Below, in pieces: positions 20,576-52,780 of a stretch of 64,000 nt of DNA. Position numbers and translations under genes: made by a program. How positions within the stretch are numbered: position 1 is the first letter of the stretch; the number at the start of each line of letters is the position of its first letter. The stretch comes from Saksenaea vasiformis B4078. Lineage: Eukaryota > Mucoromycota > Mucoromycetes > Mucorales > Saksenaeaceae. The DNA lies in contig JNDT01002331.1 of assembly GCA_000697055.1 (NCBI GenBank), forward strand, positions 1 through 64,000, in the 5' to 3' direction. Under the pieces are notes generated by a model. The model saw only the letters and a list, made by a program, of their open reading frames with translations. It was not told the DNA's origin and made no database searches.

Positions 20576-22562
20576 ATGCCACCTTCCTTTCCCCCTTCCC
20601 AATCATTACACATGGATGAACTCAGCCGCAGTTACAACCGCATGAATCTTCACGAAATACTCAAAGAAGATCGCCCGTTGAGCTCACGAGAATGTCTGAT
20701 GGAGTTGATTCACCAAGTAGAAGATACTAATTTACGTCAAGCCATGACGATCGAAATGAAACGTGTTATCGCTGATCATGAACGACTGGTAATTATGTTA
20801 CAACAGCGGAGTGAATCAGTAGAACAGGAAAATCAGCAACTCAAGTCTGTCGTTGGAGAACATCAAAGACGTTATGAAAAGGCAGTACGAGAGATGCAGT
20901 TTTTCAAAAAGAAATACGATCGATTGTTGGAAAACAAACCTTCAGAACGGCCAACAGAGTATGTGGATATGTCTAGATCCACAACAGCAAGCACCACTAC
21001 CACAATGACCACTGCTGCCAATTATCTCCCACCTGACAGTCCTCAAATTTCATCTATTTCTGTTGTTGAAAACGGCTACCCTTATGAAACGTACGAATTT
21101 GTTAAGCAAAAGTCATTGCCACCGCCAGCAAGATCCTCCTACTGGCCAGGTTCAGAACCCCTTCATCATCGACAAAGCTCAGGATCTCCAAGTGTTTATA
21201 GTGCCTCTACGGACTCTCAAAGTGTGTGCTCCCAACGGATCGACGGTTCATTTGAGAAGAAATCGTGGCACTTTTTGCGGCGTGACCCCTCTCTGGCATC
21301 CTCTTACTCCACACCCTCCACTTCCTCTACACCTTCTATTGTTTCTTCTGGCAGCTCTGTTCATTCTGTACCCATGACCCCTGTACGATCGACAACAGCC
21401 ACCAATGGGTATACTGGCTCATCACTCATTCAACAACGCCGCTCGGATCCTTTGATATTCGGTGGCTCCGATGGTTTATGGGAAACCATCGCTAAAAGCA
21501 AAGGGAGCGACGTTACGGTAGAAAAGATCATAAGGTAAAAAAAAAAAAAAACTTCCACTCCTATTTTCTTCTTTCCCCTTCATAAACGCCCCTTTTGACA
21601 TGTTTACCTGTTATCTAACCCACTTTGTTGCTTTTTAGCAACTTCCTCCGACGAGGCGGATCACCAAATACTGCCAAACAATCATCTTCTGCCCAATTAG
21701 TGAAATATGGTTATGGTATGGTCCATGCTTTGATTGTAACAAAAGCACCTGGATCACTTGATCTACTCCTTCAGCAAGGAGCCAATCCGAATGCGATGAC
21801 ATTAAGTCAACTGGACGAAGACAAAGTAAGTTGATTAAACTAATATAGTCAATTTTCCTTAAATTAAAAACGATACGATAGGTTTCGCCTTGTTATTTAG
21901 CCGCTAGTGTTGGTTGGCTTCCCGGACTTCAAAAATTAGTACAAGCGGGCGGAGATCTGGTATCAGCTCGTGGGGAAGGTCCTAAAAACAAAACTGCGCT
22001 TCATGCGGCAGCCGAACACTGTCATGCGGCCGTCGTTGAATACATTGTAGGCGTGACACAAGGTGCTATTAATCTGGCGCTGGATAGCCAAGGTAAAATA
22101 ACAATAATAATAATAATAATAATAGTAATGTATATCATTTCTGACTTTTTTTTCTTTTCCGTCTCTTTAGGAGCCACTGTATTGCATTACGCTTGTGCGT
22201 CTGGTCATACCGATCTTGTTTCCTTTTTAATTCGCACCTGCCAAATTCCAGTGAGTCAATGTGACAGCCGACAAGAACTGCCGCTGCATTGGGCAGCACG
22301 GCACGGAAGACTCGAGGTTGTGACGTTGTTAATTGAACGCTTTGGATGTGACGCCAATGCCTATGTGCCTCGTAAAGTAGGCACGCCACTGGACTTTGCA
22401 AAATCTGGCTCTCATAAACGACTTGTGGATTACCTCAAGGGAGTGGGTGCTCTTACAGCCAAGAAGATGGATAAGCGACGAGAAGAAGATTTAGCCAAAC
22501 AAGTTCCTACTCATTTGGAATCTACGCTTTGCCGAAACGGGTTTTTCTTTGATGACTTTTGA
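20576..22562 (+). CDS. Coiled-coil and ankyrin-repeat protein
   Basis: Four exons, 20576-21534, 21639-21825, 21882-22092 and 22171-22562, give 582 aa. The N-terminal part (about residues 25-125) has a long heptad-rich helix (LQQRSESVEQENQQLKSVV) that should form a coiled coil. A Ser/Thr/Pro-rich linker follows. The C-terminal half carries ankyrin repeats: LLLQQGANPNAM, GPKNKTALHAAAEHCHAAV, ATVLHYACASGHTDLV, LPLHWAARHGRLEVV, and a last GTPLDFAKSGSHKRLV. These are scaffold features for protein binding. I do not recognise a named family. Methionine 13 (20612) is a possible alternative start. Confidence 0.8.
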
Positions 22563-29688: not shown

Positions 29689-31732
29689 TCATTGACTCCA
29701 TCTTCCAAAGCAAATCCGGACCAAACGACAAAACCATCGCAAGCCGCGCCTAATCCAGCAAGGTATAAAGCAAAACCACCTCGACTTCCTTTCTCCATGC
29801 GTTTGCATATTTCTTTCCATCCCTTGCAGCGCAAGCGCCTTGCCAGTGACTTGTTCATTTTCCTTACTTAACTCGTCTAGGAATAGCTCATATTCCGACT
29901 GATATAACCAGCCAGAGCCAGGTAAGATGCTGGCTATTTGTGGATCTTAGCTTCCTTTTCATCTTACGTTTAACTTACCTTCTGCGATGCTTAGAAAGTA
30001 CCGCTTGGTAGTCTCCATGCAATGTCGACCAGCTTCTTTAATATCGGATGACGGATTCACTTCTTCCTAGTTACGATGTTACGACATCATTAAGATCACC
30101 AGCTCGTTACCTGCATAACTTCATTGTATCGTATAATTGCTGCTTTGTGCAAGTTCCTTAAGTGGGAAGCAAAACATATGTGCAATTCATCTCCAAACAT
30201 TGCAAGTAGCGTCCTTTTATTCTCTTGGTAAACGGCTTGCGGATGTCGAGGTGTCTCCTGGTCGAACAATCTAATCCCTTCATCTTGTATCTCTTTCAAT
30301 TTCGCGCCAAGGTTCGAATCAATCTCCTCTTTTTCGACAATTGATGCCTTAACATGTGCAAGTCGTCCAGTAAACTCTCTGTGTACTAACTAAGAGGTGA
30401 AAATACAGAATAAGCTGTAATAATGCTTCACAAGAGAATCTTACTTTGACTGCTTCGCTGAATTTATGTTGATCTACCAGCTCCTGTCGCGTTGGTATTT
30501 CAAGTTCCCTGTTCGCTCTGATGTCTTCCCACGTTCTGGTGATATAACGGTGATATTCGTTGGCAGGAACACCCTTATGATACTGAGATTGGAATACATA
30601 GTTCGGCTCTTTAGGTTCACTAAACCTTTGCGTATATTAGGACACTTCTCTCTTTAGAGCACTAAGTTTACCAGCGACGGAGTTCTGCCACCTTCATGTC
30701 AAATTCCTGCGGAACATAGACTCTGTCAGGTAAGGCAGTGTACTTGAAGTCAAAATAGTCATCGATACTGCTATCTCTAAGGTCTTCTGGCTAAGACGAC
30801 TTATAAGTAAAGTGACACAATAAGAAATAAAGAATACCTTGTGCATCTTCCTCCAAATTGTGGAAAACGTCTCTTGAAGCGTCTTTGACAAGCTATCGAA
30901 GGGAGTCTCACCGGTAAAATCGCGAATAGCAATCAGCAGTAGGATCTTCACTTTGGCCTTTCCTTTGCTAAATTCCGAAAACAAACCAGTTACTGTATCT
31001 CCTTTTTGACTCCCTGACTAAGCAATATAAATCTATTATTTGGCAATCCTCACTTACACTTCTAGATTTCGGGAAAGTTTGAGGTTGACTTCAAAAACCA
31101 TTTTCAGCATTTCCTCGTTAGCACCGTCATGGAGGCCGATTTGGTACTCATAAATATTCACAATTATAACTTCGCTTGTGGTAATGCAAAACAGTGCCGA
31201 TTTACGTTCGAAGTCTTTATCCTCTCCACGCTCTTGACCATCAGTTCCCTCAACATCCATCACAAGTATAGGTATTCCTCTAGCAAGTGATATCCAGATT
31301 CCCTTTGTTGTTTGACCTCGCTGTTGTCCATCCATCATTTGAAAGGACGTCCCGAAAATTTGGTTTAGAAGAGTACCTAAGATAAGACTTGCCAAATGAA
31401 CAGATTTCCATCTTCTAATGTCTGTGGTATCGACCTACTTTTACCGCTACTCTGGGAGCCCAAGATAGAGACAATGTTGTACTGACGTTCGACGTTGCCA
31501 AATCCCAGCTGCAGCATGTATGGGTGTAGTTGTTTGCTAGGACAACAAATACGTTATATCGCCGCTCCTCATTTGTTTCCCATTGCAACTGTGCATACCT
31601 CAAGTTTTGATGTTCATCCACAAGCTGCAGAGGAGTGCCAGAGTTGGGAAACTCATCCTGACTACTCATCCTTGGACTATTTTTGGCGACAGTTGATATT
31701 GAATCCATGTAGAGGAGTGGTGCGTTTTCCAT
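29689..31732 (-). CDS. Sey1/RHD3-like large GTPase A, no TM hairpin, Trp/Cys-rich tail
   Basis: Nine exons: 31732-31599, 31536-31439, 31376-31058, 30967-30838, 30790-30672, 30625-30445, 30389-30111, 30066-29979 and 29933-29689 (530 aa, all phases consistent). GTPase motifs: P-loop GSQSSGKS near residue 71, switch I QTTKGIW, switch [15 protein letters not shown], and the RD motif in AIRDFTG. The following part matches the Sey1 linker ([19 protein letters not shown]) and the first helices of the bundle ([17 protein letters not shown]). Canonical Sey1 has about 780-850 residues and a C-terminal membrane hairpin. Here the protein stops after a short helix and a Trp/Cys/Arg-rich tail ([13 protein letters not shown] then [17 protein letters not shown]). 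That tail could insert as an amphipathic helix or be palmitoylated. Upstream in-frame ATGs exist. Confidence 0.85.
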
Positions 31733-32103
31733 GGGTACCTGAAAGCACAAAAGTATCATATGAATCATATAGTGCATTACATATTGGTCACCTTACTTTA
31801 ATTTAGGGATTAGCTGACAAGAGTAAGACGAGGTAGGAAACCGATCAATCACTATTTGTCGAGTAAGAAATAAATTTAGGGCGAAAGAAGCGACGAAAAA
31901 AACATCAGTGCCAAAATGTAACAGGGCCCTGATGCTTTGTCAACAGGAATGGTATCGTGACACCTAAACGCAAACACATTTGAAAAGTTGAACTGTGTTA
32001 CAATCGTTAATCCTATAAAGCAAACATGTCTGAAACAGTATGTGATAAGGTTTTCCTTCAAAATTAATATGTATTGGTTATCCGGTGCCATGCGTGGGAG
32101 AGG

Positions 32104-33455: not shown

Positions 33456-35643
33456 CTAACTGATGATACACTTGCTTTGGGACTGAAGAATTTCTTCTAT
33501 ATCGGCTTTATGCTGTTCTTGCATTACTCTAACGGTTTCTTCGCGTTGTCGTTCAAGTTCGGCTTTATGCTGTTGTTGCATCATTTGGAAAGTTTCTTCA
33601 CGTTGTCGTTCAAGTTCGGCTTTATGGTCTTGTAGCATTTTTTTGATGGTTTCTTTGTGTTGTTCTTCAAGCTTTTGCATGAACATTAAAAAATAATCCT
33701 TTAAATCTGAATTAGCTTCTGGACGGTGTCTCAGACGTGTGCCTATGTCCCGCAATCTCCGTTCCTCTCCTTCATATCCTTCCTGTTTTCTGGATAACTC
33801 CTTCTGGAGTAAGTCATAAGAATCCCTGTAGGACCAATTAAATTCAGGTAGAACGCTGCCTGTATACAAATCTTAGTCTTCGTTACGTATATTTTTGATA
33901 TACCTTTTGCACCGTCCGTAAAGTAATCTTCTGCAGTTTTCAGACAAATTTGCACAGATTTAGAAGGCTCCGTTGCTTGCTGCTGCTGCATATCACCAAT
34001 GAAATGGGCTAGTCGTGCCCTCATCATCCCATCAAACATTTCAACCGCTTCTTTCCGCAGATTTTTCAGCTGATAAAGGAAGCACTCATGCAATCTTCTG
34101 TCAACACTTCCTAGCAGGTCTTCCCTCATCTCTTGGTATACGGCCTGATCGTATCGAGATGCTGCCTCATCAAATGATGCAATTGCTTCGCTGAATAGTG
34201 TTTCAAATTCCATGCCGAGAGTAGGGACAACATTCTCTTGCTCAAATAGTAATGTCTTGATCCTTTCAACTCCACTGATAAAACGCCGATAAACTCCCTG
34301 CGAAACGAAGCACAAACAAGCTATAGAGGTGCACCATCGTCAAGGCCTTACATCAAAAATTTCCTTGCATTTATGTCGAGCTAAGAGCTCCTGCTGCGTT
34401 GGTAGGTCAAGACCCCTGTCTTTGCAAATCTCGTTCCAAATTGCAGACACGTAATTGTGATATCCGTCAGCAGGAATACCCTTATGGTACCACGGACGAA
34501 ATACATAGTGAACATCGTCGGAGTAGTCGAAACTTCGCTCATATTAGCAATTTCTTTTCACAATCTCAGACGTACATGTTACGGAGAGCTCTCACTTCTT
34601 GTTCAAATGTTTCAGGAGCACGGGTCTTGTGAGCTAGGGTGGTGTACATGAAATCAAAATATTCATTGATATCGCAATTTCCGAGGCCTTCTGGCTAAAA
34701 CACGTTATGGTCTTTCATAATCAAATGAGATCAGGAATACCTTGGGAATCTTAGCCCAAATCTTCTCAAAATTACTTTGAAGTGTGTCTCGAAGGTTAGC
34801 CAGAGGAGTGCGACCAGTATAATCACGAATAATTATCATTAACAGCGTCTTTTTCTCACTAAATGGATTATTGAAGCAAGATTAATTACAATATTTCTTC
34901 TCCCCCGTTACTGAATCACGCAAACTTATTATGTCGGTAATGCTACCTACCCTCTCTGATGTTGAAAGAGCTGAACGTTTACTTCGAAAACCCTTCTTAA
35001 AGTTGACATGTTGGCACCATCGTGGAGGCCAACCTGGTGCTCCCGAAGGTTTAGGATCACGACGTCACTTGTAGCCATGGAAAACAGTGCAGATTTATGT
35101 TCAAAACCTTTATCCTCTCCGCGTTCCCGGCCATCTGTGCCCTCGACGTCCATCACAAGTATAGGCGTCCCTTTAGCACGTGATATCCAGATGCCTTTCG
35201 TTGTTTGACAGCGTTTATTTGGGTCCATCATTGCGAAGGACGTCCCAAAGAGTTCATTCAGCAGGGTGCCTAAAAGAGAGGACAGTCAAATGGATAGTTG
35301 TGCTTCTTGCGAAGCTCATGTTATTGACCTACTTTTACCACTACTCTGGGAACCCACGATGGAGACAACGTTGTATTCGAGTCCGACGTGAGCCAAGCCC
35401 CACCGAGCCATGTAGATGCCTAGCTGTTCGCTATGATGGTATAATCAATATCATTATAGGCAAGCAGTATTTGTCTTCCTATAAGAGACAGACATACGTA
35501 AAGTTCTGATGCTCATCCACAAGCTGTAGGGGAGAAATAGGCTTGATAAGCTCTTGCCAACTACTTGTCACCGACAGGGTCTCGATATCTGATAGCGAAG
35601 TCATAGTGCCGCTTACGCTTAACGGTGGTCTATTAACCTCCAT
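33456..35643 (-). CDS. Sey1/RHD3-like large GTPase B with coiled coil and CaaX box CIIS
   Basis: Eight exons: 35643-35498, 35430-35333, 35269-34951, 34858-34741, 34694-34576, 34538-34352, 34297-33904 and 33859-33456 (594 aa). Exons 7 and 8 of the A/C/E/F genes are fused here. G motifs are intact: [35 protein letters not shown]. The C-terminal part is a coiled coil with a 19-residue repeat ([12 protein letters not shown], seen twice plus partial copies) and ends in Cys-Ile-Ile-Ser. That is a farnesylation-type CaaX box in place of the Sey1 membrane hairpin. Exon 6 has one extra T near 34501 relative to its paralogues. The frame survives only if the acceptor TATGAG at 34539 is used instead of the usual GAAG, so decay or an assembly error is possible. 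An in-frame ATG at 35664 is an alternative start. Confidence 0.75.
33501..33650 (-). repeat. 57-bp tandem repeat inside GTPase B
   Basis: Two near-identical units start at 33544 and 33601, with a partial third to the left. The period is 57 bp, or 19 residues. They extend the coiled coil of GTPase B and are absent from its sister D. Confidence 0.8.
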
Positions 35644-37505
35644 AGTTGTTGAATATACAATCATCTAATACTAATTAATATCCTTTAGCGCACTTTGATA
35701 GCTTTGTTTTGATCTAGGAAGTAGTAGACAAGACGAAGACAAGGTAGGGCTGTGACTAATCAGCGCTTGTGGCAAGTACAAAAGAAGACGAAAGAGAGAT
35801 GACAAATATATTCTCCACCGAAAATTGTTGACAGGATGTCATCCTGAGGCGTAGCAACATGACATCTACAAATATGAAAATATCGCAGTGTCTGTGTACA
35901 TTCAGTACATGCGTTTCCTCCATATGAAACATCACCAATGCATAATCACTAATAAAATTAATTAAAATGTACTGGTGATTGGTTATAACGAGCAGGAGAA
36001 GGACCGGGCCCAGACTAAGCCTTGAAAAACAAACATCGCCTCAGCCCAATCTCTATCTTATAGAAAGCACTTCCCAGACAGAACCCTCTGGCACCTTGAG
36101 AGGAAAGATAGTCATGGATGGTTTTTCTCCCCTCTACTGTTGTAGAGAAATCTTTAATTGGTGTCGTGTAGATGGATTGATTTTATACTGGAAGACTTAT
36201 CGATGGCGATCGTGACGAATTAAACTCAGAGAATCACTTGCAATTAGTATGGGTCATGTTACCAATGCCTCAGTTTGGTTTAATGGCAAGACGCAACTTC
36301 AATCCCGTCAGGCTCAACGTTATAGATGATTACCGAAGACAACAGAGAGTGGAAGACGCCCGAAAAGACACGGTTTATCCGCTATTGCTCTTCTATTGCC
36401 TTTGCTCTGGCTTTTTCTGTACAGATTCTTTATTCTCCTGTTTTCTATTACTTTGTTTCGTACATATCGGTTATTGCAATGACCGAGAATCGGCATTGCC
36501 ACTCTTTTAGGTAAGGAAAGCGTACACCATATCATTTGTTTGGTGGCTATGGCTTCCGTTTGAATTTGTATTACAAATTTAAGGTTCCCATAAGCAAACG
36601 CTAACTTGGAAGACAGGATACTTTGGTCAAAAGGTGAGATATATGCTATTGCTGTGTCAGTGCTATGTATTCGATCTACAACGGTATAAATACAGTCATA
36701 CATGGTAATTAGCAAGTCATATAATTTTACCAGGGTCAACGGCACCGTTCAGCCCCACTGTACCCATCAATTATCAGTCAAGACACAGCGCATAGAAAAG
36801 ATGCTCTGCAAAGTCACGCCGAAAGTCCAGAGATATACTCATGTGCTTTGTTTAGGAAAATAGTCACCAAGTTCTTGGTAGCCGTACTTTCCTACATTAC
36901 TCTGGTTTCAACGAGATACTTGCTCCTTAGCTCTTTACCTTGCGATTGTTCTGATTGAATAAAGGAGATTTAGAATCAATGTGCTTTAACTTGCACTTGT
37001 CGTGCCAAAGCTTCTTCACCATACCATGCTATGAAGAATCGAGACAAAGCGATCTCGACTATTTACTGAAAATGATAAAACATGATGAATCCTCGGTAAC
37101 GACTTTTCCGCGGTGCTACAGAGATGGCCTATACAGTCCGGCACATCGATCACTAAAGCAGGAAATAGTATCTCTATGCAGAAAAGTTACTTTCAGCACG
37201 CTCGACTGCTATGGGGTTATGTCACAAAAGACGCGTAAGAAAGATATCCACAGGGAAACATTAGTGATTCTTGTCTTATTCAGAACGACCTTCTTCCACC
37301 ACCAAAATCTCGGTAACTAGCGCGTCGTCTATGTCTCTTGCATTTTAGCTTGTGATAATCAAGATCTGTACACACTAGGAAATTACTATGGTCTGCGCTC
37401 ACAGCACATTGAATCATCTGAGTTAGGTGTTTATATAACAAACAAGGAGCACATTGATCCTATGGCGTTAACGTATGGCAAATAGTGGAGACTACTAGAC
37501 CTAAA
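35644..37505. other. Spacer between GTPases B and C
   Basis: Non-coding. The left half (up to about 36910) matches the 5' flank of D at 42621-43890. The right part (37150-37505) matches the 3' flank of A. Open frames at 36238-36745 lie on both strands without motifs. Confidence 0.6.
35998..36050 (-). promoter_or_regulatory. Shared upstream block of GTPase B
   Basis: About 355 bp upstream of the B start. The core CAGACTAAGCCTTGA then AAACATCGCCTCAGCC matches the blocks of the other five genes. Confidence 0.45.
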
Positions 37506-39551
37506 TCATCGACTATATCTTCCAAAGCAGACGGAAATAAATTGCCAAACCCATTTAAAGGGCCAAATAATACAGGCGGATATAAGATAAATCCACGACT
37601 TCGTCCCTTCATGCGTCCGTGCACTCATTTCCAGCGCCTCCAACTGAAGCGTTTCGCCGGTGAATCTCTGGTTCTCCGTGGATAACTCCTTTTGGAATTG
37701 CTCGTATTCAGACTGATATGACCACTCGGAACTGGGTAACACGCTCGCTGTTTGTAAATATTAGTTTCCGTTCCACCTTAGCTTTTATATTACCTTGTGC
37801 AATATCTTGAAAGAAGTCCTTAGCAGCCTCCATACAAGTCTGTCCAGCGTCTTTAATGTCACGTGAAGCTTTCAGCTCCTCATCCTGGTTATCATGTTAC
37901 TATCTCATTAATACTAATCATCCATTACCTTCATATCGCTTTTATACTTCGTAATTCCTTCTTTACGCAAGTTTCTTAGCTGGAAAACAAAGCATGTATA
38001 TGCTTCATCTTCAAGCATTGCAAATAGATACTCTTTATTCTCTTGGTAAATGTCTTGGGGGTGTCGAGGCGCGTTCTGGTCAAACATATAGAAAACTTCG
38101 TCTTGTAGTTTTTTCAGCTTCTTGCCAAGACAAGGGACAATCTCCCCTTTTTCGGCACCTGAAGATTTAACGGGCGTAAATTCCTTAATAAAGTGCTCGT
38201 ATGCTATCTGGAAGATAAGATCCTGGATTATTACTGTGATGCTTCAGAAAAGGATCTTTACTTTGACCGCTTCGTTGAACTTGTGCCGATCTACAAGCTC
38301 CTGTTGTGTTGGTATTTCAAGTTGCTTATTTGCTTGGATGGCTGCCCAAGTGCTGGTGACATAGTGATAATACTGGTCGGCAGGAATACCCTCACGGCGA
38401 TGAGGCCGGAATAGATAGTTTCGATTGTTGGAGTCATTGAACCTTTACCACATATCAGAATATTTTTTTTGAGCAACAAATTTACCAGCAGCGGAGTTCT
38501 GCCACTGTCGTGTCAAATTCCTCCGGAAAGTCGAACTTATTAGGTAAACTAGTATACCTGAAACCAAAACAGTCATCGATACTGCTATCTTCGAGGTCTT
38601 TAGGCTAAAGCAGTAGATAAATAATGAGGCAAGGATCATTCAATCAGAAATGAAGAATACCTTGTGCATTTCGCTCCAAATTCTCGAAAACGTTGCTTGG
38701 AGCGTATCTGTCAGGTTCGCTAAGGGAGTCCGACCGGTAAAATCGCGAATAACAATCAGCAAAATTGTCCTCGACTTGTTCTTTTCTTTGCTATATTAGA
38801 AAACAAATTGAAGTCAATTGTTGTATTTCTCAACTCCCAAGATACGTGCGTATAAAGTCACCGCTTTGACAATCATTACTTACACTTTCGGATTTTGGAA
38901 GTTGACCTCAAAAATCGTTTTGAGCATACCAAAATTAGCACTTTCATACAGGCCAACTTGGTGTTCCCAAATATTCACGATCATAACATCACTTAAGGTG
39001 ATGCAAAGTAGTGCAGATTTACGTTCAAAATCTTTATCCTGTCCACGTTCTCGGCCATCTGTACCCTCAACGTCCATCACAAGCAAAGGCATTCCTCTAG
39101 AACGGGAAATCCAAATGCCCTTTGTCGTTTGACGGCGCTGATGTCCATCCATCATTTCAAAGGATGTCCCGAATGTTTCGTTCAGAAGAGTACCTAAGAC
39201 AGAGGTTGTCAAATGAACGCTCTCGCTTCTTCCAAGGTCAGTGATATCGACGTACTTTTGCCGCTACTCTGGGAACCCACGATAGAGACAACGTTGTACT
39301 CGAATCCGAGGTTGGCAAATCCAGACCGTAGCATATCCGTCCGTAGCTTTTTACTGTGACAGTGTGATAAATATAATTACAGTTGATTCATCTGTTTTCC
39401 CACTACAAAAGACATACTTAAGGATCTGATGCTCATCCACAAGCTGCAGAGGGGCAACAGGTGCGCTAACCTCATCCTGGCCATTCGCTATTGAACCATT
39501 GTCGGTGACGTTTGATACTGGGGTCTCGCTGAGGAGTGGTTTCTTATCCGT
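37506..39551 (-). CDS. Sey1/RHD3-like large GTPase C, apparent ACG in place of start ATG
   Basis: Nine exons: 39551-39418, 39353-39256, 39193-38884, 38790-38661, 38604-38486, 38442-38262, 38207-37929, 37884-37794 and 37747-37506 (527 aa if translation starts at the ACG). Exon lengths match A except for a 9-nt deletion in exon 3. G motifs are intact: [35 protein letters not shown]. The tail after [12 protein letters not shown] carries a hydrophobic Trp-rich segment ([18 protein letters not shown]) that could be one membrane or re-entrant helix. The first exon aligns with A but has ACG at 39551-39549 where A has ATG. No in-frame ATG follows in that exon, and an in-frame stop lies upstream. The rest is open, so a non-AUG start, an unseen upstream exon or a young pseudogene are all possible. 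Confidence 0.7.
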
Positions 39552-40515
39552 AGGTTCTAATAGGCACAAAAGCGGAGGTCAGCTCATATGCTGCGTCAGT
39601 TTTTAATCATCTTGCTTTAATATAATGGGATAGCCGATAAGCGTAAAACAAAGTAGGATACCAACCAAACGACATTTATCAAGTAAGGAGGGAAGTCTAA
39701 AACGAAAGGGACAAAGAAAAAACACCAGAGTCAAAATAGAACAAAGCCCGACGTCAATCTAAGAAGTAGTTGTTGCACACGTAAAAGCAAGCATATGTGG
39801 AAAAGTTGAATTGCGTTACAATCATTGACTTCGCAGATCAAATAGTTCTGAAACATTTTGAATGGATGTATGCAATACGGTGTTTCTGTTCAATGCTCTT
39901 AATACATCATATTTGTTTGGTATGTAAGTGTGAGAGGAGGAAACCGACCCAGACTAAACCTTGAGAGACAAACGTTACACTAAGCCGAGCACCTTTACCC
40001 ACAACAAGACGGTACCTTCCATGCATAATTTTGATAACTGAACATCGTAACGATATAGTGTGAGATAACAACTGCATGATACGCTTGTCATCTTCGCGTT
40101 GCTACGAACCCTTTTACCGTTATAAAAATCATTGATTTTCGGCTTAAATAAAAGTTAAGCTAGCTGTATGGCATAGGTAGGGTCTGATTAGCATACTCAA
40201 ACAAACTATAGACAGGTTCTATCAACAACGATATCAACCTGGGAGAAGAGTGTAGAGGAAGGTTTCTTCTAGAAAAGGTAAGAAGATTCTGCATTCATGT
40301 CTTCGATAGTCATAAATGATAGTCGTTTGAACCAAATTTATTGACTTGTGACGTAGTAGACACCGAAAATAGTGAACACAGTTGCAAATTGGTTCAAAGT
40401 GGTGAAATAGGGTACAGAGCAATGGGTGTAGGATCTTCGAATGCTATCCATGAGACTCAAAAAGAGGAAGTGGTTGATAATAACCTATTGCAAACCACAT
40501 GATTTTCAAGTATAA
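39552..40515. other. Spacer between GTPases C and D
   Basis: Non-coding. Holds the upstream region of C and the 3' flank of D; similar to both ends of the A-B spacer but without its 900-bp extra segment. Confidence 0.6.
39936..39990 (-). promoter_or_regulatory. Shared upstream block of GTPase C
   Basis: About 385 bp upstream of the presumed C start. Core CAGACTAAACCTTGA then ACAAACGTTACACTAAGCCGA. Confidence 0.45.
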
Positions 40516-42620
40516 CTAGCTGATGATACATTTGTTTTGGGCCCGCATCATCTTTTCCATCTCTTCCCTATGTTCTTGTAGGATATCTTTGAGAACCTTT
40601 GCATGTTGTTCTCCAAGAGAACGAGCGAGATCTTTTTGGCTTTGCATGAATGTTTCAATGAGCGCCGTTAGGAATGGAGCGTTATTGGCGGCCCCTTGAC
40701 TATGTCTCAAACGTGTGCATATGTCTCGCAATCGCTGTTCGTCTTCTTCGTGTTCTTCCTGTCTTCTGTTTAATTCCTCCTGGAGTGACCCATAAGCATG
40801 ACTATAAGACCAGTTGGATCCGGGTAAAATGCTTTCTAGATGTAAAGCTTAGTCTTTGTTGCGACTACTCTTAATATACCTTCTGCAGCTTTCGTGAAAT
40901 ATTCTTCTACAGCATCGCGGCAGCTTTGGACAGATTCAGCAGGCTCTGCTGCCTGGTGCTGCAGCACATCGCTTATGATATGCGCTCTTCGTGCCCTCAT
41001 CATTCCACTGAATTTTATAATTGCTTCTCGCAGCAAGTTTTTCAGCAACCAGAGAAAGTATTCGTACAGTTTCCTGAGGATCTTTTCTAGCAGGCTCTTC
41101 TTTTTCTCCAAATATACTCCCTGGTGATATCGAGACGCTTTCCGCTCAAACATTGCGTTTGCTTCGTCGTGTGACACCTTAAATTTCGCGCCGAGATTAG
41201 GGACGACTTGCTCTTGTTCGAACAATAATGTCTCGGTGTTTTTAAGGCTCCGGATAAAATGTTCGTATACTACCTGCGAAACAAGACACAGAAGAAGCTA
41301 TAGTGAAGCGGCATGGTCAAAGTCTTACATCAGAAATTTGCCCGCATCTATGTCGAGCTAGTAACTTCTGTTGTTCTGGTATATTAAGATCTCGGTGTTC
41401 GCAGATTTGATTCCAAATTTCAGACACATAATTTTGATAACCGTCAGCAGGAATGCCCTTGTGATATCGCTCATGGAATATATAGTTTGTGTCGTTATGG
41501 TTGTCGAACCTTCGCTAATATTAGTAATTCGTCTTCACGAGATCAAACTTGCATGTTACGTAGATTTCTCACTCCTTTATTAAATGCCTCGGGCTTACTG
41601 AATTTGTTAGGTAAGGTGACGTAGGTAAAATCGAAGTATCCACTTATATCGCAACCTTCGAGACCTTCTGGCTAAAATACATTATGAAAGACTTCTGTAA
41701 GCAGACGGAATAAAACATCACACGATACCTTTGGGATCTTAGCCCAAATATCCTCAAAGCTTCTCTGAAGTGTTCCTTCCAGATTAGCCAGAGGAGTGCG
41801 ACCAGAATAATCGCGAATAACAACCATCAACAATGTCTTGCTTTTACTACATGAAGAATTAAGCGGGATCAATAAGAATCTTTTCTTCTTCGTTATCGAA
41901 TCACATAATAGTGCTATAGCAGTAACTGATACACACCCGTTCTGATTTTGGAAAAGCTGCAGGTTTACTTCGAACACTTTCATCAGCATTGACAGATTCG
42001 CACCTTCATGAAGGCCAACTTGTTGCTCCCAAAGGTTTAAAATCACAATGTCACTTGTAGCCGTGGAAAACAGCGCAGATTTACGTTCAAAGCCTCTATT
42101 CTCTCCACGTTCCCGGCCATCCGTACCCTCAACGTCCATCACAAGTATAGGCATTCCTCTAGCACGGGATATCCAGATTCCTTTTGTTGTTTGGCGGCGG
42201 TTGTTTTCGTCCATCATAGCGAAAGACGTACCGAAAAGTTCATTCAGAAGAGTACCTAATATGATAGCGTCAAATGAATAGGCTTTTTATTTCCCAAATA
42301 TTCTGTTATTGGCTTACTTTTACCACTGCTCTGGACGCCCACGATGGAGAGAACATTGTATTCAAGTCCGACGTCATCTAAGTCCCACTGTACCATGTGG
42401 GTGCCTAGTTCTTCGCTATGATAACAAGTAATTATAAGTGATCGATCTTTGTTTCCCGCTACTGATGTACTTACCTGAATTTCATATGTTCATCCACAAG
42501 CTGCAGGCAAGAAATAGTCTCAGTGCTCTCGTTCCAACTGTCCGTCAATGAGGCAGTTTCTGTGTCTGAAGCTGAAGTGACACCATCACTTTCACTTGAC
42601 CGTGATGTCCTAATCTCCAT
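40516..42620 (-). CDS. Sey1/RHD3-like large GTPase D with coiled coil and CaaX box CIIS
   Basis: Eight exons: 42620-42475, 42415-42318, 42255-41937, 41846-41729, 41671-41553, 41509-41329, 41273-40880 and 40835-40516 (564 aa). As in B, the intron between bundle exons 7 and 8 is absent. P-loop GVQSSGKS, switch I QTTKGIW, switch [15 protein letters not shown], and VVIRDYSG are present. The linker ([14 protein letters not shown]) and the first bundle helices ([10 protein letters not shown]) follow Sey1. The C-terminus is a charged coiled coil ([20 protein letters not shown]) ending Cys-Ile-Ile-Ser, a CaaX box predicted to be farnesylated. No hydrophobic membrane segment is present. Intron 5 has a GC donor (AT then GCAAGT). 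I expect a prenyl-anchored, membrane-associated dynamin-like GTPase. Confidence 0.87.
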
Positions 42621-44396
42621 AGATGGAAGCTATAACATTGATTAATGTACTAGCGCACGTTAACTCTCTCGTTTTGATTTAGACAATTGGCAGACGAGAG
42701 CAAGGCAAGGTAGGGCACTGACCAGTCAATTTTTGAGTAGCGTAAGGAAAAAGTAAACGAAAGAAACGATGAAAAATATAGCTGTACTGAAAGTTGTTGA
42801 CAGGGTATCATTCTGAGAAGCAGCAATATGAATCCAAAAGTATGGGATCTGGGAAGATTTGGATTGCGGCACTCTCGTATTTAGTCCATGCATTTCCTCC
42901 TACTGAAACGTTACTAATGCATAACTTTATATGGTAAGTCATTAAGATTGGGAGAAGAAAAGCGCCTAATACTAAGCCTTGAAAAACAAATATCGACTTG
43001 GCCGAGTGTTTATTTCATAAGTACTTCTAGAGCAGAATCCTGTGGTACCGTGAGAGGAAGAGCATCTACTACTGATTTCTTCCTTGTGGCTCTTGTGGAG
43101 AAGCTCTTATAAGTGGTATGTAAGGATATTCATTCTATACTGGAAGTCTTACCGACGACCATATTGAAGAACTAAGCGCAAAGAATCACTTATAATTAGT
43201 GTGGGAACTTCATTAGTATCTCAACCTGATTTAAAGACAAGATACTAGCGCAATCCTGCCTGACTCGAAGTTATCATATAAAAGATGTGCGCTAAGGCAA
43301 GGCAAGAGTAGAAGGCACCCGAAGAACAAGTTTTATCCATCTATTGCCTTCACTCCGTTTTTTTGTGTATAGACACTTACTTTTGACTTGAGAATCCCAA
43401 AGGTATTTCTTTTTTTTTCTAGCTCTCAATCATAACAAAACATTTAAGATAACATACATTGCTTCTTGTTTTGGTAAGGAAAATGCATAGCTTGTCATTT
43501 GTTTGATTGTCATGGCTTTTGCTGAAATTTGTATTACAGAGTCTAGGTCTTCATAAGTAGGCATTGATTTGGAAGACAAGGTGCACTAAACAAAGATCTT
43601 ACCGTATTTGAGCCATATTCTACCGCTGCGTCAACGCAGCAGTTTCAAACTACAACAACATAAAAACACAGTCGTAGCTAGTAGTCGGTTCTTGGTATGA
43701 CTTCTACTGGAACAAGCGAGATGTATAAATCTCGCTGTGCTTATCGGCTGTCAGTCATGAGCAACTCAGCATAGAAAAGATATGCTTCAAATCAATACCG
43801 GAAGTCCAATTATATCCTCGCGTACTTTGTTTAGGAAAGAAGTTGCCAAATCTTTGGTAGCCGTGTTTCCCTATATCTACTCTGGCCCCTACTTGTCTTT
43901 TTCTTTTCAGCTTTTGATCATACTGATCCGACAGAAGATCCTGGCCCACGTGTCTTAAACTTGCAGCTGTCGTGCCCGAGCTTCTTTGTCATATTACAGG
44001 ATTAAAATCTCCTCATCAGCTGGCTATGACCCTGGAACCTACATATTTGCTTCTCTGCTTAGAAATACCATCCAAAAAGAACATTCTCATGAGGACGACC
44101 ATTTTTTCCTCCGTTTCTCTGTTCACGCTTCCCCGGAGCCTTCAAGCCACTCTCCTCCGTTCTTCTTCGCTTTGTTCCTCGTTTTCTCCCTCCATCTTTT
44201 CCTTCTCTTTCCGGCTCCTGTTCGTCATTCTACCGTTTCAGTTTTCAGTTAACCAGCCGCTTAGCAGCGTTTCCTGTTATCGCAACATGCCAACAACGAA
44301 CAAAGTGAATACATCGAAAGCAGGAGCGATATATCTCCGTATTACATACTGGGTAAGGAGCTAATAGTGACATTGAAGCTGTGAGTATTGCAATGC
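42621..44396. other. Spacer between GTPases D and E
   Basis: Non-coding; the left 1.2 kb is the duplicated 5' flank shared with B. The short open frames near 43972-44364 have no motif and overlap between frames. Confidence 0.6.
42953..43010 (-). promoter_or_regulatory. Shared upstream block of GTPase D
   Basis: About 335 bp upstream of the D start. Core ACTAAGCCTTGAAAAACAAA then TATCGACTTGGCCGA. Confidence 0.45.
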
Positions 44397-46861
44397 TTAA
44401 AACGGTGACTTTAGTCCAAAATTTTTGGGGATTGCTTTAAGTGAATTCATTGCTGCGTTTGCTGCGTTTTTTGCCCTTTTCCCCCAGTTCCCCAACCCTG
44501 AGGGTCCAGTTGCTAGATTTTCTTGTTTCTCTTCTTGTGCTTTCGCCTTCGATGGTATTGGCACAGTTACGGCATTGATTTGCAGTGCAATTCTGGGAAT
44601 AGTCGTGGACTCAGCTGTTGATCCAACTGTCGGTTCAGTCATCGCTTCATCTGTGCATACAACCACAGATTCGGCCGTGAATTCGGCTGTACTTTCAACC
44701 ATGTGTCCCAGCATGGGTTCAGCCGTTGGCGCAATTACAGCGTCGGTTGCCGGTGCAACTCTGGGATAGGCCATGGCTTCCGCCGTAGGTTCAGCTGTTT
44801 GTCCAACTGTCTGTTTAGCCATCGCTTTAGCCATGTACTCCATCGCGGTTCCAGCTGGTATCCCTGTGGATTCTATCTTCCCATCTTCCTGCTTTTTCCC
44901 TAGTTCCGTCAGTAGAAGTACTGCCTTCTCCTCTAGACGCTTTCTTTCTTGCTCATTCAACCTCTGCTTCTCCTTGGACAAGTCCTCATGGAGTAGACTA
45001 TACTCGCAATCTTGTGGCCAGTCAGCTCCAGGTATAATGCTAGCTGTATATGAACCTTAAGTTTTGTTGAAACGTTGCTCTTGACTTACCTCCTACGCTG
45101 CTTTCGAAGAAGTACTTTGCAGCTCCCTCGCATTTTTCAATAGCCTCAGAAAATTTGTATGAGGATCTCGTTTGTTCGTCCTAGATATGTTTCAGGAATT
45201 CGCGGTATGCAATAAACCATCCGTTACATTCATGTCTCGATTAAACTTTCTTATCGCCTCTTTGCGTAAATTTTTCGACTGAGAGATGAAGCATCCACGT
45301 AACTCTTCGTCAATCTGTGTAATCATGCTATCCTTTTTCTTTTGATATACGCTATGTTGATTTCGAGCTGCTAGCTTTTCAAAGGATGCAACTGATTCGT
45401 TCCTTATCTCACTCAGCCTCTCGCCAAGGTTAGGGAGAATATCTTCGTGCACGACTATCAGGTTTTTGATATCCGCAATTCTCTTGATTAGATCCCTGTA
45501 AGTCTCCTACAAAATGGACCATGATACATGACGGGATACATCGGAAAAGTCTTACATCGAATACTGCCACGCATTTATGCAGAGCTAAGAGCTCCTGTTG
45601 CGTTGGTAGATCAAGCTCATTGTTTTCCCGAATTTGCTTCCATACGTTGGATGTATAGTTGTGATATTCGTTGGCGGGAATTCCCTTGTGATACAAGCGA
45701 CGGAATACATAGTTTGCATCATTAGGGTCTTGGAACCTGTGACACGTTAGCAACTTTAACTCCAAAGTGGCAAACTTACCTCTGACGCAACGCTGCTACT
45801 TCTTGATCGAATTTATCTGGAACGAATACTTTATGAGGCAGAGCGGTGTACTTAAAGTCAAAATATTCATGTATACTGCTGTTTTCGAGGCCTAGCGGCT
45901 GGAATAGATTTAGGAATCGCTCTTAGCAGATGAAAGATAGAAGCAAATAATACCTTGGAAATAGTGATCCAAATATTCTCAAAATCTAGTTGAAGTACTC
46001 TTTTCAGGTTATCAATGGGGGTGATACCGGTGTAATCACGAATGATGATCATCAAGAGGGTCTTCGATTTAGAATGACCTTCGCTACATCAAATAAGTCA
46101 GTCGATCGTGCGTTTACTATTTATCTCTGACTGAATTGCGATAGATCATTTCTTAATCGTTGCTTACCTTTTTAATGCTTGAAAGAGCTGGAGGCTGACC
46201 TCGAAGATGGTTTTGAACAATCCCAAGTTCGCACCTTCATATAGACCAACGTGATTTTCCCAAATATTTAACATCAGAACCTCGCATGTGATGAGGGAGA
46301 ACAGCGCAGATTTGCGTTCAAAGTCTTTCATCTCCCATTGTTCTTGACCATCTGCACCCTCGACATCCAGCACAAGTACGCGCATTCCTCTACCACCGGA
46401 TATCCAGATACCTCTCGTAGTCCGGACGCGGTTGTTCCCATCCATCACATCAAAGGACGTCCCAAAGAGGTGATTCAGAAGGGTACCTGGATTTTAATAA
46501 CCAATGAATATCAGCTCTTCTCTTCAAACGCGGGTTATTAACGCACTTTTACCACTACTTTGGGAACCTACGATTGCGACAACATTGTAATCGAGTCCCA
46601 CATCAGCCAATCCCCATTGAAACATATGCGAACTTAGTTCATTGCTGTGAAAACACGATAAGCAAACTTATAGATACGACAGCCCTGGGACTTCCGCTAC
46701 GGATGCACATACGTAAAGTTCTGATCTTCATCCACAAGTTGTAAACGAGGTGTAGCCTCTGTATCTTCCTTCTCGGTAGGCACAATTGGATTATTCTCTG
46801 CACCATCCAACAAGAGAGGTGTGGTGCTATTCCGAATCAAACTTGTACTGCCGTCATTCAT
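44397..46861 (-). CDS. Sey1/RHD3-like large GTPase E with degenerate switch II and long low-complexity tail
   Basis: Nine exons: 46861-46713, 46644-46547, 46486-46168, 46083-45954, 45898-45780, 45736-45556, 45506-45228, 45180-45090 and 45043-44397 (670 aa). P-loop GSQSSGKS is intact. Switch I reads VRTTRGIW and switch II reads [13 protein letters not shown], against the family [15 protein letters not shown] is kept in IIRDYTG. The bundle helices ([19 protein letters not shown]) follow. The last exon adds about 190 residues: a basic helix, then a Thr/Ala/Glu/Pro-rich region with recurring TAEPT, TAEF and STAES words. It ends in a short amphipathic-looking stretch ([19 protein letters not shown]) without CaaX box. 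The Sey1 hairpin is absent but the terminal helix recalls the amphipathic C-terminus of Sey1/atlastin. GTP hydrolysis may be altered. Confidence 0.82.
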
Positions 46862-48069
46862 ATTATGCTAGCTATAAAGTGGAGATGTGCTAATCGATAC
46901 ATTAGATACAATATGTGCATCCCGTTTTAATATATGGAAGGATTATAGAGGTGCGGTGACAGAGTGAAATACTGACCAGGTTGTGGGTGTGCCAAGTGCG
47001 AAAAAGTGCAATGCAACACCGTTAGCGTTAATAAGCAAATTTGGAACACAGGTAGAAGACTTGTCATTCTGAGAATCAGCAAGTTACATCTAGAAGCACA
47101 AGTCAAAACAAAAGTTACATACGACATCGTGACTAAACCTAGAAGTCAAGTTGAGCCGACCATCCATGCAGTGGCACCATCTGAAACGTTATGACATGGA
47201 AAAAACTTTCTTTGATCATATTCACTGTTTACAAGTAATAGATACATAGTTTGTTTGTATAGAAGAGTAGATGAAGAGATGTACCCGGATTGAACTTTGA
47301 AGACAAGCATTACGTCAATCGAGCATCTTTTACCACCCAAATGAGTTTTATGTGGTACCTTGCAGAATTGCGCAAGTCAACGTTGGAGTGATCATAAAAG
47401 AATACTGATACTTGACGTTTCCCCGTATTTCTCTGTGCCCATGTACAAGAATACAAACAATTATGGTGAATTGTCAGAACAGGCATTACACAGTCATTGT
47501 TTCCCACAATGTTTTCCATTTCACAAAGTAAAGCTACTCCAATTATTGATTATCGCTCTGTTATATTTTATTTCAAACGGGAAAGTAAAAATTACTCCAT
47601 TGGATCTATTGGCGTGTTGCATAGTCCCAGCGTCCACGCAATCTCAACGGATGCATTGGCCTAAAGACTATTATCTGCTGTAAAAGAAAAAAAAGTGTCT
47701 CCAATTGCTTTACGCCTCGGATCAGTTTGTGGAAAGGATTGTGGCAGTGATGAGCTGACACGGTTTGAAACTTCGCGTCTGACTAACGGTATATGCGGCT
47801 TAACACAAAAAAAAAAAAAGATAGGAAGTCCTCCATATTGCTGCTCCGAATTTTAATAAAAATAGTTGCATGAGCACAGCGTATTTGGATAAAAAAAAGC
47901 TACCATAAAAGATTCTGGTGTGTGTCAGGGTAAACGGATAAGTAAAAAGGCACAAACGAGGCAACAGAATAAGTTGAGCGAAAAAAGTAAAAAAAAAAAA
48001 AAAGAAAGAAGAAGAAAAAGAATATACGGCTGGTAGTTGGTGTTTCCACATATGTCGCTTCCAGGTAAA
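46862..48069. other. Spacer between GTPases E and F
   Basis: Non-coding. The part 46880-47160 is highly similar to the 5' flank of F (50270-50550), for example GTTAGCGTTAATAAG at 47021 and 50417. A purine-rich A/G run lies at 47990-48020. Confidence 0.6.
47274..47330 (-). promoter_or_regulatory. Shared upstream block of GTPase E
   Basis: About 415 bp upstream of the E start. Core GATTGAACTTTGAAGACAAG then CATTACGTCAATCGAGCATC. Confidence 0.45.
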
Positions 48070-50242
48070 TTACTGGATGACACAGAGGTGAAATGAGGGA
48101 CCGGATACGGGCCTGGAGATTTTTGCTAGCGCTTCTCGATGACTTTCTGATAGATTTTCAAGCGTTTTTTGATAGGTATCCTGAAGAGACTTCATTTCGT
48201 GTGCATGTCTCTCGTCAGCTTTTGCGAGAAGATCTTTGTAGTCATCCGCAATTTTGTTTATCATCTTTATCATCTCATCATGGTTCGCCTTTTGCAGTTC
48301 TTCTTTCACACGCTCGAACATGGTTTTCCACCTCTGTCCCTCTTCTTGTTGTATCTGCTTGGCCTCAGCTAAGTCGTTCTTGAATAGCTGATACTCGGAA
48401 TCGTATGACCAATTGGCTCCAGGTAGGACACTGGCTGTATTTGATCTTAGCTTTTGTACATCTATCGTCAACTTACCTCTTGCACCACTAAAGAAGAACT
48501 CATTTGTCGCCTCCTGGCATTTCCCCACAGCCTGAGCAAATGTGTATGAAGGGTTCATTTGCTCATCCTAAATAAAGTTTAGAAAACCGTTATGAAATAA
48601 GTCGTCATTACATTCATGCTTTCATTAAATTTTTTTATCGCCTCTTTTCGGAGAGCTTTCAACTGAGAAATGAAGCATTCGTGTAATTCTTCGTCAATAT
48701 GTGCGATAAGGTTGTCCTTCTTCATTTGGTATACGCCCTGTTGATATCGGGACGCTAATTTTTCAAAGGATACGACTGACTCGTCCCTTATCTGTTTTAG
48801 TTTCTCGCCAAGATTAGGGAAAGATTTCTCTTGTATAATGACCGATGTTTTGACTTCCGTCACTCTATCGCTGAAATCCCTGCACACGACCTACAAATTA
48901 ATTATAGCGTAACACGTAAAGGAACAACAAGAGAGACTTACTTCGAAGATTTCGTTGCATCTATGTTGAGCTAACAGTTCCTGCTGCGTTGGTATATCAA
49001 GGTCATTGTTTTCTCGGATTTGTTTCCAAACGTTGGATGTATAGCTGTGATATCCGTCGGCGGGAATTCCCTTGTGATACAGTGGACGGAATACATAGTT
49101 TGCATCATTAGGGTCTTGGAACCTGTGACACGTTAACACATTTAACTCCAAAGTGGAAAACTTGCCTCTGACGCAACGCTGCTACTTCTTGATCGAATTG
49201 CTCTGGAACGAACACTTTATGAGGTAGGGTGGTGTACTCAAAATCAAAATATTCATGGATGCTTCTGTTTTCGAGACCTTGAGGCTAAACAACAGCGTTA
49301 GAGAAAGAAAACTCTGGACACCTAGTACCTCAGTGATTTCTCTCCAAATGTCATTAAAGTTATTTTGAAGTGTTGCTTGTAAGTTTTCCAGCGGAGTTGT
49401 ACCAGTGTAATCGCGGATGATAACGAGCAAGAGAGTCTTGTTCAGTCTACTGAATTGGGTAAGCTCACTATGCAGATCACCAGCCACTACCTATCCTGGT
49501 TTTCGAAGAGCTCGAGATTGACTCCAAAAACAGTTCTAAACATGGCCAAATTGGCCCCTCCATAGAGGCCAACTTGGTTCTCCCAAAGATTTATAATCAC
49601 AGCTGCACTTATAGACATCGAAAACAAGGCAGATTTACGTTCAAAATCTCTATCTTCCCCGTGTTCATGGCCATCTGCTCCCTCGACATCCATCACAAGT
49701 ACACGCATCCCTCTACCGCGGGATATCCAGATACCTCTCGTCGTCTGGCGGCGGTTGTTTCCATCCATCACATCAAAGGACGTCCCGAAGAGGTGATTCA
49801 GAAGGGTACCTGTATTTAAATAATCAACGAATATCAGCTCTTCTCTTCAAACGCGGGTTATTAACGTACTTTTACCGCTACTTTGGGAACCTAGGATTGC
49901 AACAACGTTGTAATCAAGTCCCGCATCATCCAATCCCCATTGAAACATATACGAACGTAGCTCATTGCTGCACAGCACGATAAGTGATCTTATAGCTAAT
50001 TTTTTGTTCTTCTGCTGTAAGTACACATACGTAAAATTCTGATCTTCATCCACCAGCTGTAGACGAGCTATGATTTCTGTATCTTCTTCCTCGACGTGCG
50101 CGACTGGACTATTTTCTATACCATCTTCTGTATCTTCTTCCTCGACGCGCGCAACTTGACTCTTTTCTGTATCATCTTCTGTATCGTCTGGTAGCGAGGA
50201 TATGGCGCTGTTCCCAATCAAAATTGTGCTGTCGTCGTCCAT
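48070..50242 (-). CDS. Sey1/RHD3-like large GTPase F with coiled coil and CaaX box CVIQ
   Basis: Nine exons: 50242-50031, 49967-49870, 49809-49491, 49449-49329, 49284-49166, 49122-48942, 48890-48612, 48567-48477 and 48434-48070 (594 aa). The N-terminus has a duplicated acidic motif ([21 protein letters not shown]). P-loop GSQSSGKS at 97-104, switch I RQTTRGIW, switch [15 protein letters not shown], and VIIRDYTG are present. The post-G-domain part is the closest to canonical Sey1 in the array ([50 protein letters not shown]). The C-terminal coiled coil ([20 protein letters not shown]) ends Cys-Val-Ile-Gln, a CaaX box with Gln, predicted to be farnesylated. Intron 5 uses a GC donor (CAGAG then GCAAGT). 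No membrane hairpin is present. F is the first gene of the array in the direction of transcription. Confidence 0.87.
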
Positions 50243-51120: not shown

Positions 51121-52150
51121 GATCAAGTAATTTTCTTACCTGACGTGTGCAAGTAGCACCGCCCCTATTCCACTAGGAGGTCGCAAAACCCGGGCCTAAC
51201 TAAAGGCTAAGATGACGGGTCACTAGCCGCCGTACCACTCTAGGAGTGATTATGAAATAGTCCTAACCAGAGCTTTGCGCCTGATTACCTAAGGGTTGGT
51301 TGGCTGCCTGCGGTGCAAAGTAAAAAGAGTCTCTGCTGAGGTCTTTGGAGGCTGTGTCATAAGGTTAATCATTTGTGTGTATGGAATAATGCATATTTAC
51401 CAACAAGGCGCTGGTTAGGTCTGACCGCTACAGAGACTCACATCAATTATGTGTTCGCAACTTAGCAGAATAACCTCCGCAGCGGTGTAAAAGGGATCTA
51501 AACAAATAGATGTAGTTAAATTGTTTCTTCAGATAAGAAAAATACGTTCCTTTCAATCTGTCATTGGATGCACGATCCTTGTGTAATCGCTGCATGAAAC
51601 AGACAATCCTGAGTCACTTGAAAAGAAGAAGTACATGATCTTGCGCCACATGGAAGGGTGTAAAGTAGGCTATTTTTTGAAGTTAATTGTTGTCGATTAT
51701 GAACATCAGCAGCTTACCAAGCTTGGCAGCCATCAGAAGATATACCTTCTTTTTATGTCTTTGAATACTTTGTATCAGAAAATAATGCAGAAACTGCTGC
51801 ACACTTACCGACAACGCATAAAATTAAAAACGTGAAAGGCAGGAAGAAAAAGAGAAGTGACGAGTGGAATAAAAAGAAGTTCTTTTTAACACGTCACTTC
51901 CCGATCTTTCATATCATACCTTTACTGCTACCATACACAGTACGTACACAAATTGCAGATCCGCGTTCCTTGTCAGATAAGCTACATCACTAAAGCCTTA
52001 GATCTGGGTCATTTCTGGTAGGATTGGGGTGCGCCAGTGGGGTGCGCGTAGCCAAGCATTCAAACTTATGAACTTTGAACTCTACCAATCAAATTTCACA
52101 CACTTTCCTTTTAACGTTTGAGGTCATCGGAAAAGTTTGAATCGTTGCCA

Positions 52151-52780
52151 ATGACAGATCAAACACATGTACCGCATTTTTCACAGCCCATACAATTTGT
52201 CGCTAGTCGATCTAAGTTAAAGACCGTATCCGAGCCTAAATCAAATGGAAATGCCGTTGCCGAATTCTATAAAACAGTCGTAACATCCAATACTGCGGGA
52301 TCGCACGAGAACAAAAAACAGACGACAACAGCGACCACAGATACCAGTATGCGATGGTGCCAAACTTGTGACATGGCTGTACCATCAGCATCGTATGATC
52401 GACATATGCGAGGTACTGCACATCTTGTCAGTGCCAATACGCTACCACCGCCCGACGTTCTTGTATTAAACGCAAGCAATGTGGGCTTTAAAATGCTCAG
52501 GGCTAATGGGTGGGAATACGAACAAGGTTTAGGCGTATCTGGGCAGGGAAGGAGACATCCTGTTGCGACTGTGTTAAAGCAAGATCGACGAGGTATTGGA
52601 TGCCCAGGAGCTGATAGAAGGAAACGAGTAACACACCGCTACAACGAGATCGAGCAGAAAGCCCGAGCACGACAGCTGGCTGAACGTGCAAGGCAGCCAC
52701 TGTCCGGAAAAGAACTTGCTCGACGAGATAGAGAAGAATCTAAAAGACGGACAGCGCTACTTCATTACATGAATGGATAA
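52151..52780 (+). CDS. G-patch and zinc-finger protein (GPANK1-like)
   Basis: A single open exon from the first ATG at 52151 gives 209 aa. A Cys2-His2 finger of the U1/matrin-like type lies at about residues 70-92 (CQTCDMAVPSASYDRHMRGTAH). It is followed by a G-patch at about 111-155 (NVGFKMLRANGWEYEQGLG, then GRRHPVATVLKQDRRGIG). The tail is basic and helical. The order finger, LGWxxxxGLG patch, then PVxTVLKxDRxGIG is that of metazoan GPANK1-type proteins, although I see no ankyrin repeats. G-patch proteins usually activate DEAH helicases in splicing or ribosome biogenesis. It converges with the His-rich gene (37 bp apart). Confidence 0.82.
   Translation: MTDQTHVPHFSQPIQFVASRSKLKTVSEPKSNGNAVAEFYKTVVTSNTAGSHENKKQTTTATTDTSMRWCQTCDMAVPSASYDRHMRGTAHLVSANTLPPPDVLVLNASNVGFKMLRANGWEYEQGLGVSGQGRRHPVATVLKQDRRGIGCPGADRRKRVTHRYNEIEQKARARQLAERARQPLSGKELARRDREESKRRTALLHYMNG

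Follow-up and report, generated by a model that had tools for sequence, protein, structure and literature searches.

Three genes of an array in the Mucorales fungus Saksenaea vasiformis B4078, referred to here as B, D and F, probably encode GTPases that derive from SEY1 and carry a lipid anchor in place of the membrane hairpin, which would make them GBP-like in design without being members of the GBP family. The window analysed is a stretch of 64,000 nucleotides (GCA_000697055.1, contig JNDT01002331.1, positions 1-64,000, forward strand), and the three genes lie on its minus strand in the region 33456-50242, delimited by the stop of gene B and the start codon of gene F. Gene B (33456-35643) comprises eight exons (35643-35498, 35430-35333, 35269-34951, 34858-34741, 34694-34576, 34532-34352, 34297-33904 and 33859-33456) coding for 592 amino acids, with an alternative in-frame ATG at 35664, 21 bases further upstream, indicated by spliced alignment. 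Its last four codons, TGT ATC ATC AGT (33459-33470), specify the CaaX box Cys-Ile-Ile-Ser and are followed by the stop codon TAG at 33458-33456. Gene D (40516-42620; eight exons, 564 amino acids) likewise terminates in Cys-Ile-Ile-Ser (40519-40530; TGT ATC ATC AGC, with the TAG ending at 40516), and gene F (48070-50242; nine exons, 593 amino acids) in Cys-Val-Ile-Gln (48073-48084; TGT GTC ATC CAG, with the TAA ending at 48070). The minus-strand codons of these intact models bear out the initial annotation, in which B and D were read as ending in CIIS and F in CVIQ directly before the stop. The models were built by hand and contain no internal stop, and their introns are of the GT-AG type, with GC-AG at one site each in D and F. 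When B and the database SEY1 protein P0001 were used as queries in spliced alignment, each recovered the same exons of D; the corresponding run for B and F provides no independent check, because the best-scoring query was the hand model itself.

The reading frame of the last exon is fixed in B, D and F by homology upstream of the tail, and the three boxes satisfy the CaaX rule, with Cys at -4, an aliphatic a2 residue and a permitted X. CaaX-like ends following at least 20 open codons occur ten times on both strands of the window, and only those of B, D and F follow more than 71. The boxes of B and D differ silently in the Ser codon (AGT versus AGC), all four residues being kept between the two genes, with pN of 0.257 and pS of 0.605 over the whole last exon. 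The approximately 106 residues preceding the boxes are 32-42% charged and include four to six Pro/Gly, a composition which would fit a coiled coil, and in F an 11-residue Pro/Gly-containing stretch stands just before the box.

The protein encoded by gene B matches the RHD3 GTPase domain (PF05879) at 310 bits (cut-off 42.4), and the DNA matches of D and F to this family also exceed the cut-off. The Sey1_3HB domain (PF20428) is matched by B at 60 bits over profile positions 2-223 of 419, equivalent to a stalk of about half length. The GBP family PF02263 scores 21.6 bits, just above its cut-off of 21.1, and the GBP C-terminal domain is not among the six families reported for B (E ≤0.001). By sequence, the closest solved structure to B is that of SEY1 (5ca8; E 9e-84), GBP2 being far weaker (E 1.7e-4). 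An alignment of six paralogues shows no variation at the P-loop, switch and RD motif residues. Homologues were taken as the best 120 of 2209, of 667 and of 2396 matches in three lists, and the best 120 of the 2209 database relatives of B are of the SEY1 type, most of them from Mucoromycota or related early-diverging fungi.

A paired transmembrane hairpin near the C-terminus was not found in B, D or F by tail hydropathy, the maxima being -0.44, 0.45 and 0.86, respectively, versus 2.39 in the canonical protein P0001 and 2.26 in a second canonical protein. A hidden hairpin downstream of the stops was considered and rejected, the canonical C-terminal half having strongly matched the canonical SEY1 locus of the genome and nothing in the window or in the other eight fetched stretches (E ≤1). 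Hydrophobic peptides are encoded downstream of the three stops in two or three frames each, partly by T-rich sequence and in F mostly so, and were not counted as evidence. These peptides, together with the intron-rich structure of the genes, are what would favour an annotation artefact in which the transcripts splice past the stops into an exon encoding the hairpin; the canonical C-terminal half is, however, without a match in the window (E ≤1), and the same false box would be required in all eight genes of the genome that end in one, so that this explanation is considered very improbable. The initial proposal of a Sey1-type G domain joined to a prenyl box instead of a hairpin is hence supported at the sequence level by the PF05879 match, the partial Sey1_3HB domain, the missing hairpin and the CaaX end.

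At least 19 RHD3/Sey1-type loci are present in the genome, a lower bound given by two whole-genome searches, one with the Pfam family and one with a paralogue as query, which returned the same 19 loci. One of them is canonical SEY1 and the other 18 are short paralogues distributed over five contigs, with six in the window, six on contig C270, four on C441 and one each on C546 and C548. The canonical SEY1 is encoded on a separate contig from the window, where its C-terminal half was located by tblastn, and its first 500 amino acids share 88% and 86% identity with two Apophysomyces proteins and 80-84% with the next six. Its exon lengths (98-319-118-119-181-279-91) recur fully or nearly so in most of the short paralogues, B and D having a single exon of 394 where other members of the family have two, and it is the last exon that is replaced relative to the canonical gene. 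In five sister pairs the core dN/dS (dN divided by dS) is about 0.24-0.34, and in a sixth, with dS near saturation, it is 0.13; being well below 1, these values indicate that the cores are under purifying selection. No internal stop is present in 16 of the 18 short-paralogue models. Because the spliced aligner penalises stops and may hide one inside an intron, this carries less weight where the model is irregular, as in C546, where exon lengths are irregular and one splice site is weak. One in-frame stop each is found in C441_c (G000:C441:393803-395700), for which there is no obvious in-frame ATG, and in C548 (G000:C548:141817-144057), a sign of birth-and-death turnover.

CaaX ends occur in eight of the 18 short paralogues, namely B (CIIS), D (CIIS), F (CVIQ), C270_2 (CIIS), C270_3 (CIVS), C270_4 (CVIL), C270_6 (CNIS) and C546 (CVIS), and the tails of the other ten are hydrophobic, aromatic/cysteine, basic or undistinguished. 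Cysteine at -4 is thus found in eight of 18 paralogues, versus five cysteines in total over the remaining 23 of the final 24 positions, an excess with a binomial P of about 8e-17 if the genes were independent; they are not, and the figure overstates the case. This excess, the intact models of B, D and F and the core dN/dS values all speak against the boxes being chance ends of decaying duplicates. Signs of decay do exist in the family, with in-frame stops in two of the 18 paralogues, the irregular exons of C546 and a gene in the window, C, without an obvious start codon, but as a source of the boxes decay is disfavoured and appears improbable in the extreme. The close sisters C270_4 (G000:C270:94574-96579; CVIL) and C546 (G000:C546:24181-26241; CVIS) differ at the end of the box by one base in the last codon (TTG versus TCG). 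By the usual rule a CVIL end would favour geranylgeranylation, and Leu versus Ser as the last residue would switch the preferred prenyl type.

The distribution of the boxes was examined on a tree of 43 rows and 424 columns, from which the tails were excluded and for which the rows from other genomes were picked by hand. The short paralogues of Mucorales group together (100/99) beside the canonical Mucorales SEY1; 12 of the 40 inner branches are open, and the placement of two long rows, P0221 and C548, is uncertain. At least six changes are needed to account for the CaaX ends, of which well-supported branches force four, and the CaaX label is weakly clustered (8 of 500 shuffles as low). Derivation of the CaaX members from one ancestral clade is rejected (AU p 1.45e-5). 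Tail type differs between the sisters E and F in the window and between the sister proteins P0037 and P0093 in the database, and gain, loss and exon exchange are all candidate origins of the distribution.

The closeness of the G domain to that of canonical SEY1, with a P-loop exon in C270_3 that is 78% identical to that of the organism's own SEY1, also suits another possible, though tentative, reading, in which the family regulates the ordinary shape of the endoplasmic reticulum (ER), soluble or lipid-anchored relatives pairing through the G domain with canonical SEY1 to tune or block ER fusion and having no role in defence. A single canonical SEY1 has been retained in the genome and the half lost from the short paralogues includes the hairpin, two points in favour of such regulators. 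One regulatory partner, however, is a poorer fit than turnover under conflict to eighteen copies with divergent, mixed tails, two of the copies having in-frame stops.

Protein ends were read for 234 of the 238 distinct database proteins listed, P0235-P0238 having been left out. One convincing CaaX case was identified among the 234, the Apophysomyces ossiformis protein P0093 (565 amino acids; CVIS), which also ranks first with a profile of the CaaX members in which it is itself included (886 bits versus 806 for the next). Cysteine at -4 occurs in four of the 234, including the partial proteins P0179 and P0200, where it is not part of an aliphatic box. The CLCL end of Mycena venus P0121 was judged by eye to be a gene-model end, because the sequence departs from canonical Sey1 where the family reads KA-S-FN. 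Eight Sey1-like proteins of Circinella, Phascolomyces, Lactifluus and Flammula (P0136, P0143, P0149, P0221, P0135, P0148, P0150 and P0146) are likewise short (487-552 amino acids), and the RHD3 G domain was confirmed in the four that were scanned (P0221, P0135, P0136 and P0146). They differ from the CaaX members in their mostly hydrophobic tails, none of the eight having a CaaX end, and the Lactifluus/Flammula set falls on a separate branch of the tree. In the basidiomycete Lactifluus volemus there are several short Sey1-like proteins (P0135, P0148, P0150, P0211 and P0225), some with hydrophobic tails, and the three that are rows in the tree occupy a separate branch, perhaps representing a second expansion.

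The capacity for prenylation is indicated by genome matches to the prenyltransferase alpha repeats (PF01239) at three loci, to Prenyltrans (PF00432) at three and to ICMT at two. As a control, the frames of Ras-family genes were read to the stop at 17 of 30 fetched loci, those with a match reaching at least profile position 153, which yielded four clear CaaX ends (CVLM, CVLM, CLIL and CFIL) and four Rab-type cysteine ends. A further string, CAFR, fits the loose pattern but looks like intron read-through and was set aside, and the other eight loci have neither a CaaX nor a Rab-type end, the frame probably entering an intron at many of these. The linkers preceding the boxes have a hydrophilic/small fraction of 0.73-0.91 in all nine sequences compared, and six of the nine, including B and D, are free of a buried-helix pattern. 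The initial annotation further held that a final Ser or Gln favours farnesyltransferase (FT). The last residue alone is insufficient to tell farnesylation from geranylgeranylation; CIIS is among the motifs compared with measured affinities, in a set containing many motifs that are cross-reactive between FT and geranylgeranyltransferase I (GGT1) (PMC1175975). Lipid attachment to B, D and F is predicted, with either enzyme a candidate.

In the mechanism proposed, duplication of SEY1 would have given rise to B, D and F as functional large GTPases, which retained the G domain with the beginning of the stalk and lost the remaining stalk, together with the hairpin, upon replacement of the last exon. 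On the standard pathway, FT or GGT1 in the cytosol would prenylate the CaaX boxes of these three proteins and of five paralogues, which would next be trimmed and carboxymethylated, so that the helical stalk would end in a lipid anchor through which the protein may insert into a membrane. Membranes might then be tethered or coated by GTP-driven dimerisation of the G domains, in place of constitutive ER fusion, and the hydrophobic, aromatic/Cys and basic amphipathic tails of other members may aim the same motor at other membranes. From what is known of atlastins, efficient fusion is less likely without a hairpin. The expression, localisation and tethering or coating activity attributed to the family are likewise predictions.

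Atlastin, Sey1 and RHD3 are treated as hairpin-anchored ER fusogens, and the GBPs as a prenylated branch of the same superfamily. With Sey1/RHD3 (PF05879 and PF20428; SEY1 5ca8) the short paralogues share a full-length G domain, the start of the three-helix bundle and the canonical exon lengths; they differ in the halved stalk, as seen in B, in the loss of the hairpin, in the variable last exon and in the CaaX ends of some members. Atlastin consists of a G domain and one short helical bundle, followed by a membrane hairpin and an amphipathic tail, and thus resembles the short paralogues in its first two elements, a lipid box or other tail being present here instead of the hairpin. The genes of vertebrate GBPs, immune GTPases that offer the best-known example of the layout seen here, are likewise clustered. 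Vertebrate GBP1, GBP2 and GBP5 are similar in combining a large GTPase with a helical region and a CaaX end, and in that the box is found in only some members of the family, whereas the present proteins have a Sey1-type G domain (310 versus 21.6 bits), no reported GBP C-terminal domain and a different ancestry. The likeness to the plan of human GBP1, drawn in the initial annotation, holds, because human GBP1, GBP2 and GBP5 end in CTIS, CNIL and CVLL, ends which are reported to be necessary for membrane association (PMC2998424).

The resemblance of the CaaX types to those of GBP1, GBP2 and GBP5, the arrays, the signs of birth and death and the mixture of CaaX and non-CaaX members would also suit a fungal counterpart of the GBPs, sharing the architecture favoured here and having in addition a role in cell-autonomous defence, with coats of prenylated GTPases controlling intracellular bacteria or viruses. 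Mycetohabitans endosymbionts have been reported in Rhizopus and Apophysomyces (PMC13367373). Such a role is hypothetical and seems somewhat unlikely; there is no sign, though no search aimed at it was made, that this organism carries endosymbionts or viruses, and fast turnover could have other causes. The fuller form of this idea, that a Mucorales lineage evolved a GBP-like arsenal from SEY1, with arrayed, fast-turnover GTPases whose last exon was swapped between prenyl boxes and other anchors and which coat or tether the compartments of intracellular bacteria or viruses in convergence with vertebrate GBPs but out of another branch of the dynamin superfamily, is unlikely.

Several points weigh against B, D and F being lipid-anchored derivatives of SEY1. 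Ten of the 18 short paralogues have no CaaX end, including E, the sister of F, and the anchor is therefore not needed in every member. Outside the genome, the 234 protein ends read include one convincing CaaX relative, P0093, at most a candidate orthologue of B, D or F, and its gene model lacks the sequence that links the P-loop lysine to the DVEG motif. For the conservation of the box in orthologues, on which the initial annotation had made its proposal depend, the comparison covered short paralogues: P0093 has the box, which is absent from gene E and from the other Apophysomyces short proteins P0037, P0159 and P0162, these three having hydrophobic tails (box in one of four), and no strict orthologue was identified for any of B, D and F. 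A hydrophobic-helix pattern, which a published CaaX predictor penalises in the linker (PMC1175975), is present ahead of the box in F, C546 and P0093, and in F the residues at -1 and -3 relative to the Cys are Leu and Phe. C546 may be partly decayed.

Taken as GBP-like derivatives of SEY1, the proteins have a motor and a type of anchor that are each known, but no description was found of the two combined or of such a turnover pattern. A Sey1-type GTPase family with CaaX ends was not found among the open-licence papers listed, as judged by titles and the starts of abstracts. If the derivation is correct, the GBP layout would be reachable twice, through the change of one exon. The family would offer a series of related motors that differ naturally in their anchors, in which the contribution of the anchor to fusion, tethering and coating is testable, and a candidate for cell-autonomous defence in fungi.

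The remaining three genes of the array are also encoded on the minus strand. Genes A (29689-31777) and C (37506-39476) are short paralogues without CaaX, ending in 30-residue tails that are Cys/Trp/Arg-rich and aromatic/Cys-rich, respectively; no in-frame ATG was found at the 5' end of C. The tails of A (29689-30066) and C (37506-37884) have in common a Trp/Phe- and Cys-rich motif ending in CFGR[WY]S[QR], which may anchor them to a membrane as a palmitoylated amphipathic segment. Gene E (44397-46861), also without CaaX, has a different tail of approximately 190 amino acids which ends in a basic amphipathic stretch; by eye, this tail (44397-45043) is of Ala/Thr/Glu/Pro-rich low complexity, unlike that of its sister F. 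GC-AG introns with GCAAG donors recur in the family, in D (41552-41510), F (49165-49123) and C270_2, and the last intron is of the GC-AG type in six paralogues (C270_1, C270_3, C270_5, C270_6, C441_d and C548). Elsewhere in the window, two overlapping minus-strand frames, 15115-17085 (656 amino acids) and 17012-18310 (432 amino acids), have no Pfam match (E ≤0.001). The plus-strand neighbours at 8302-9576, 12913-13926, 21882-22562 and 52115-52780 encode dual-specificity phosphatase, EH, ankyrin and G-patch domains, and are ordinary flanking genes.

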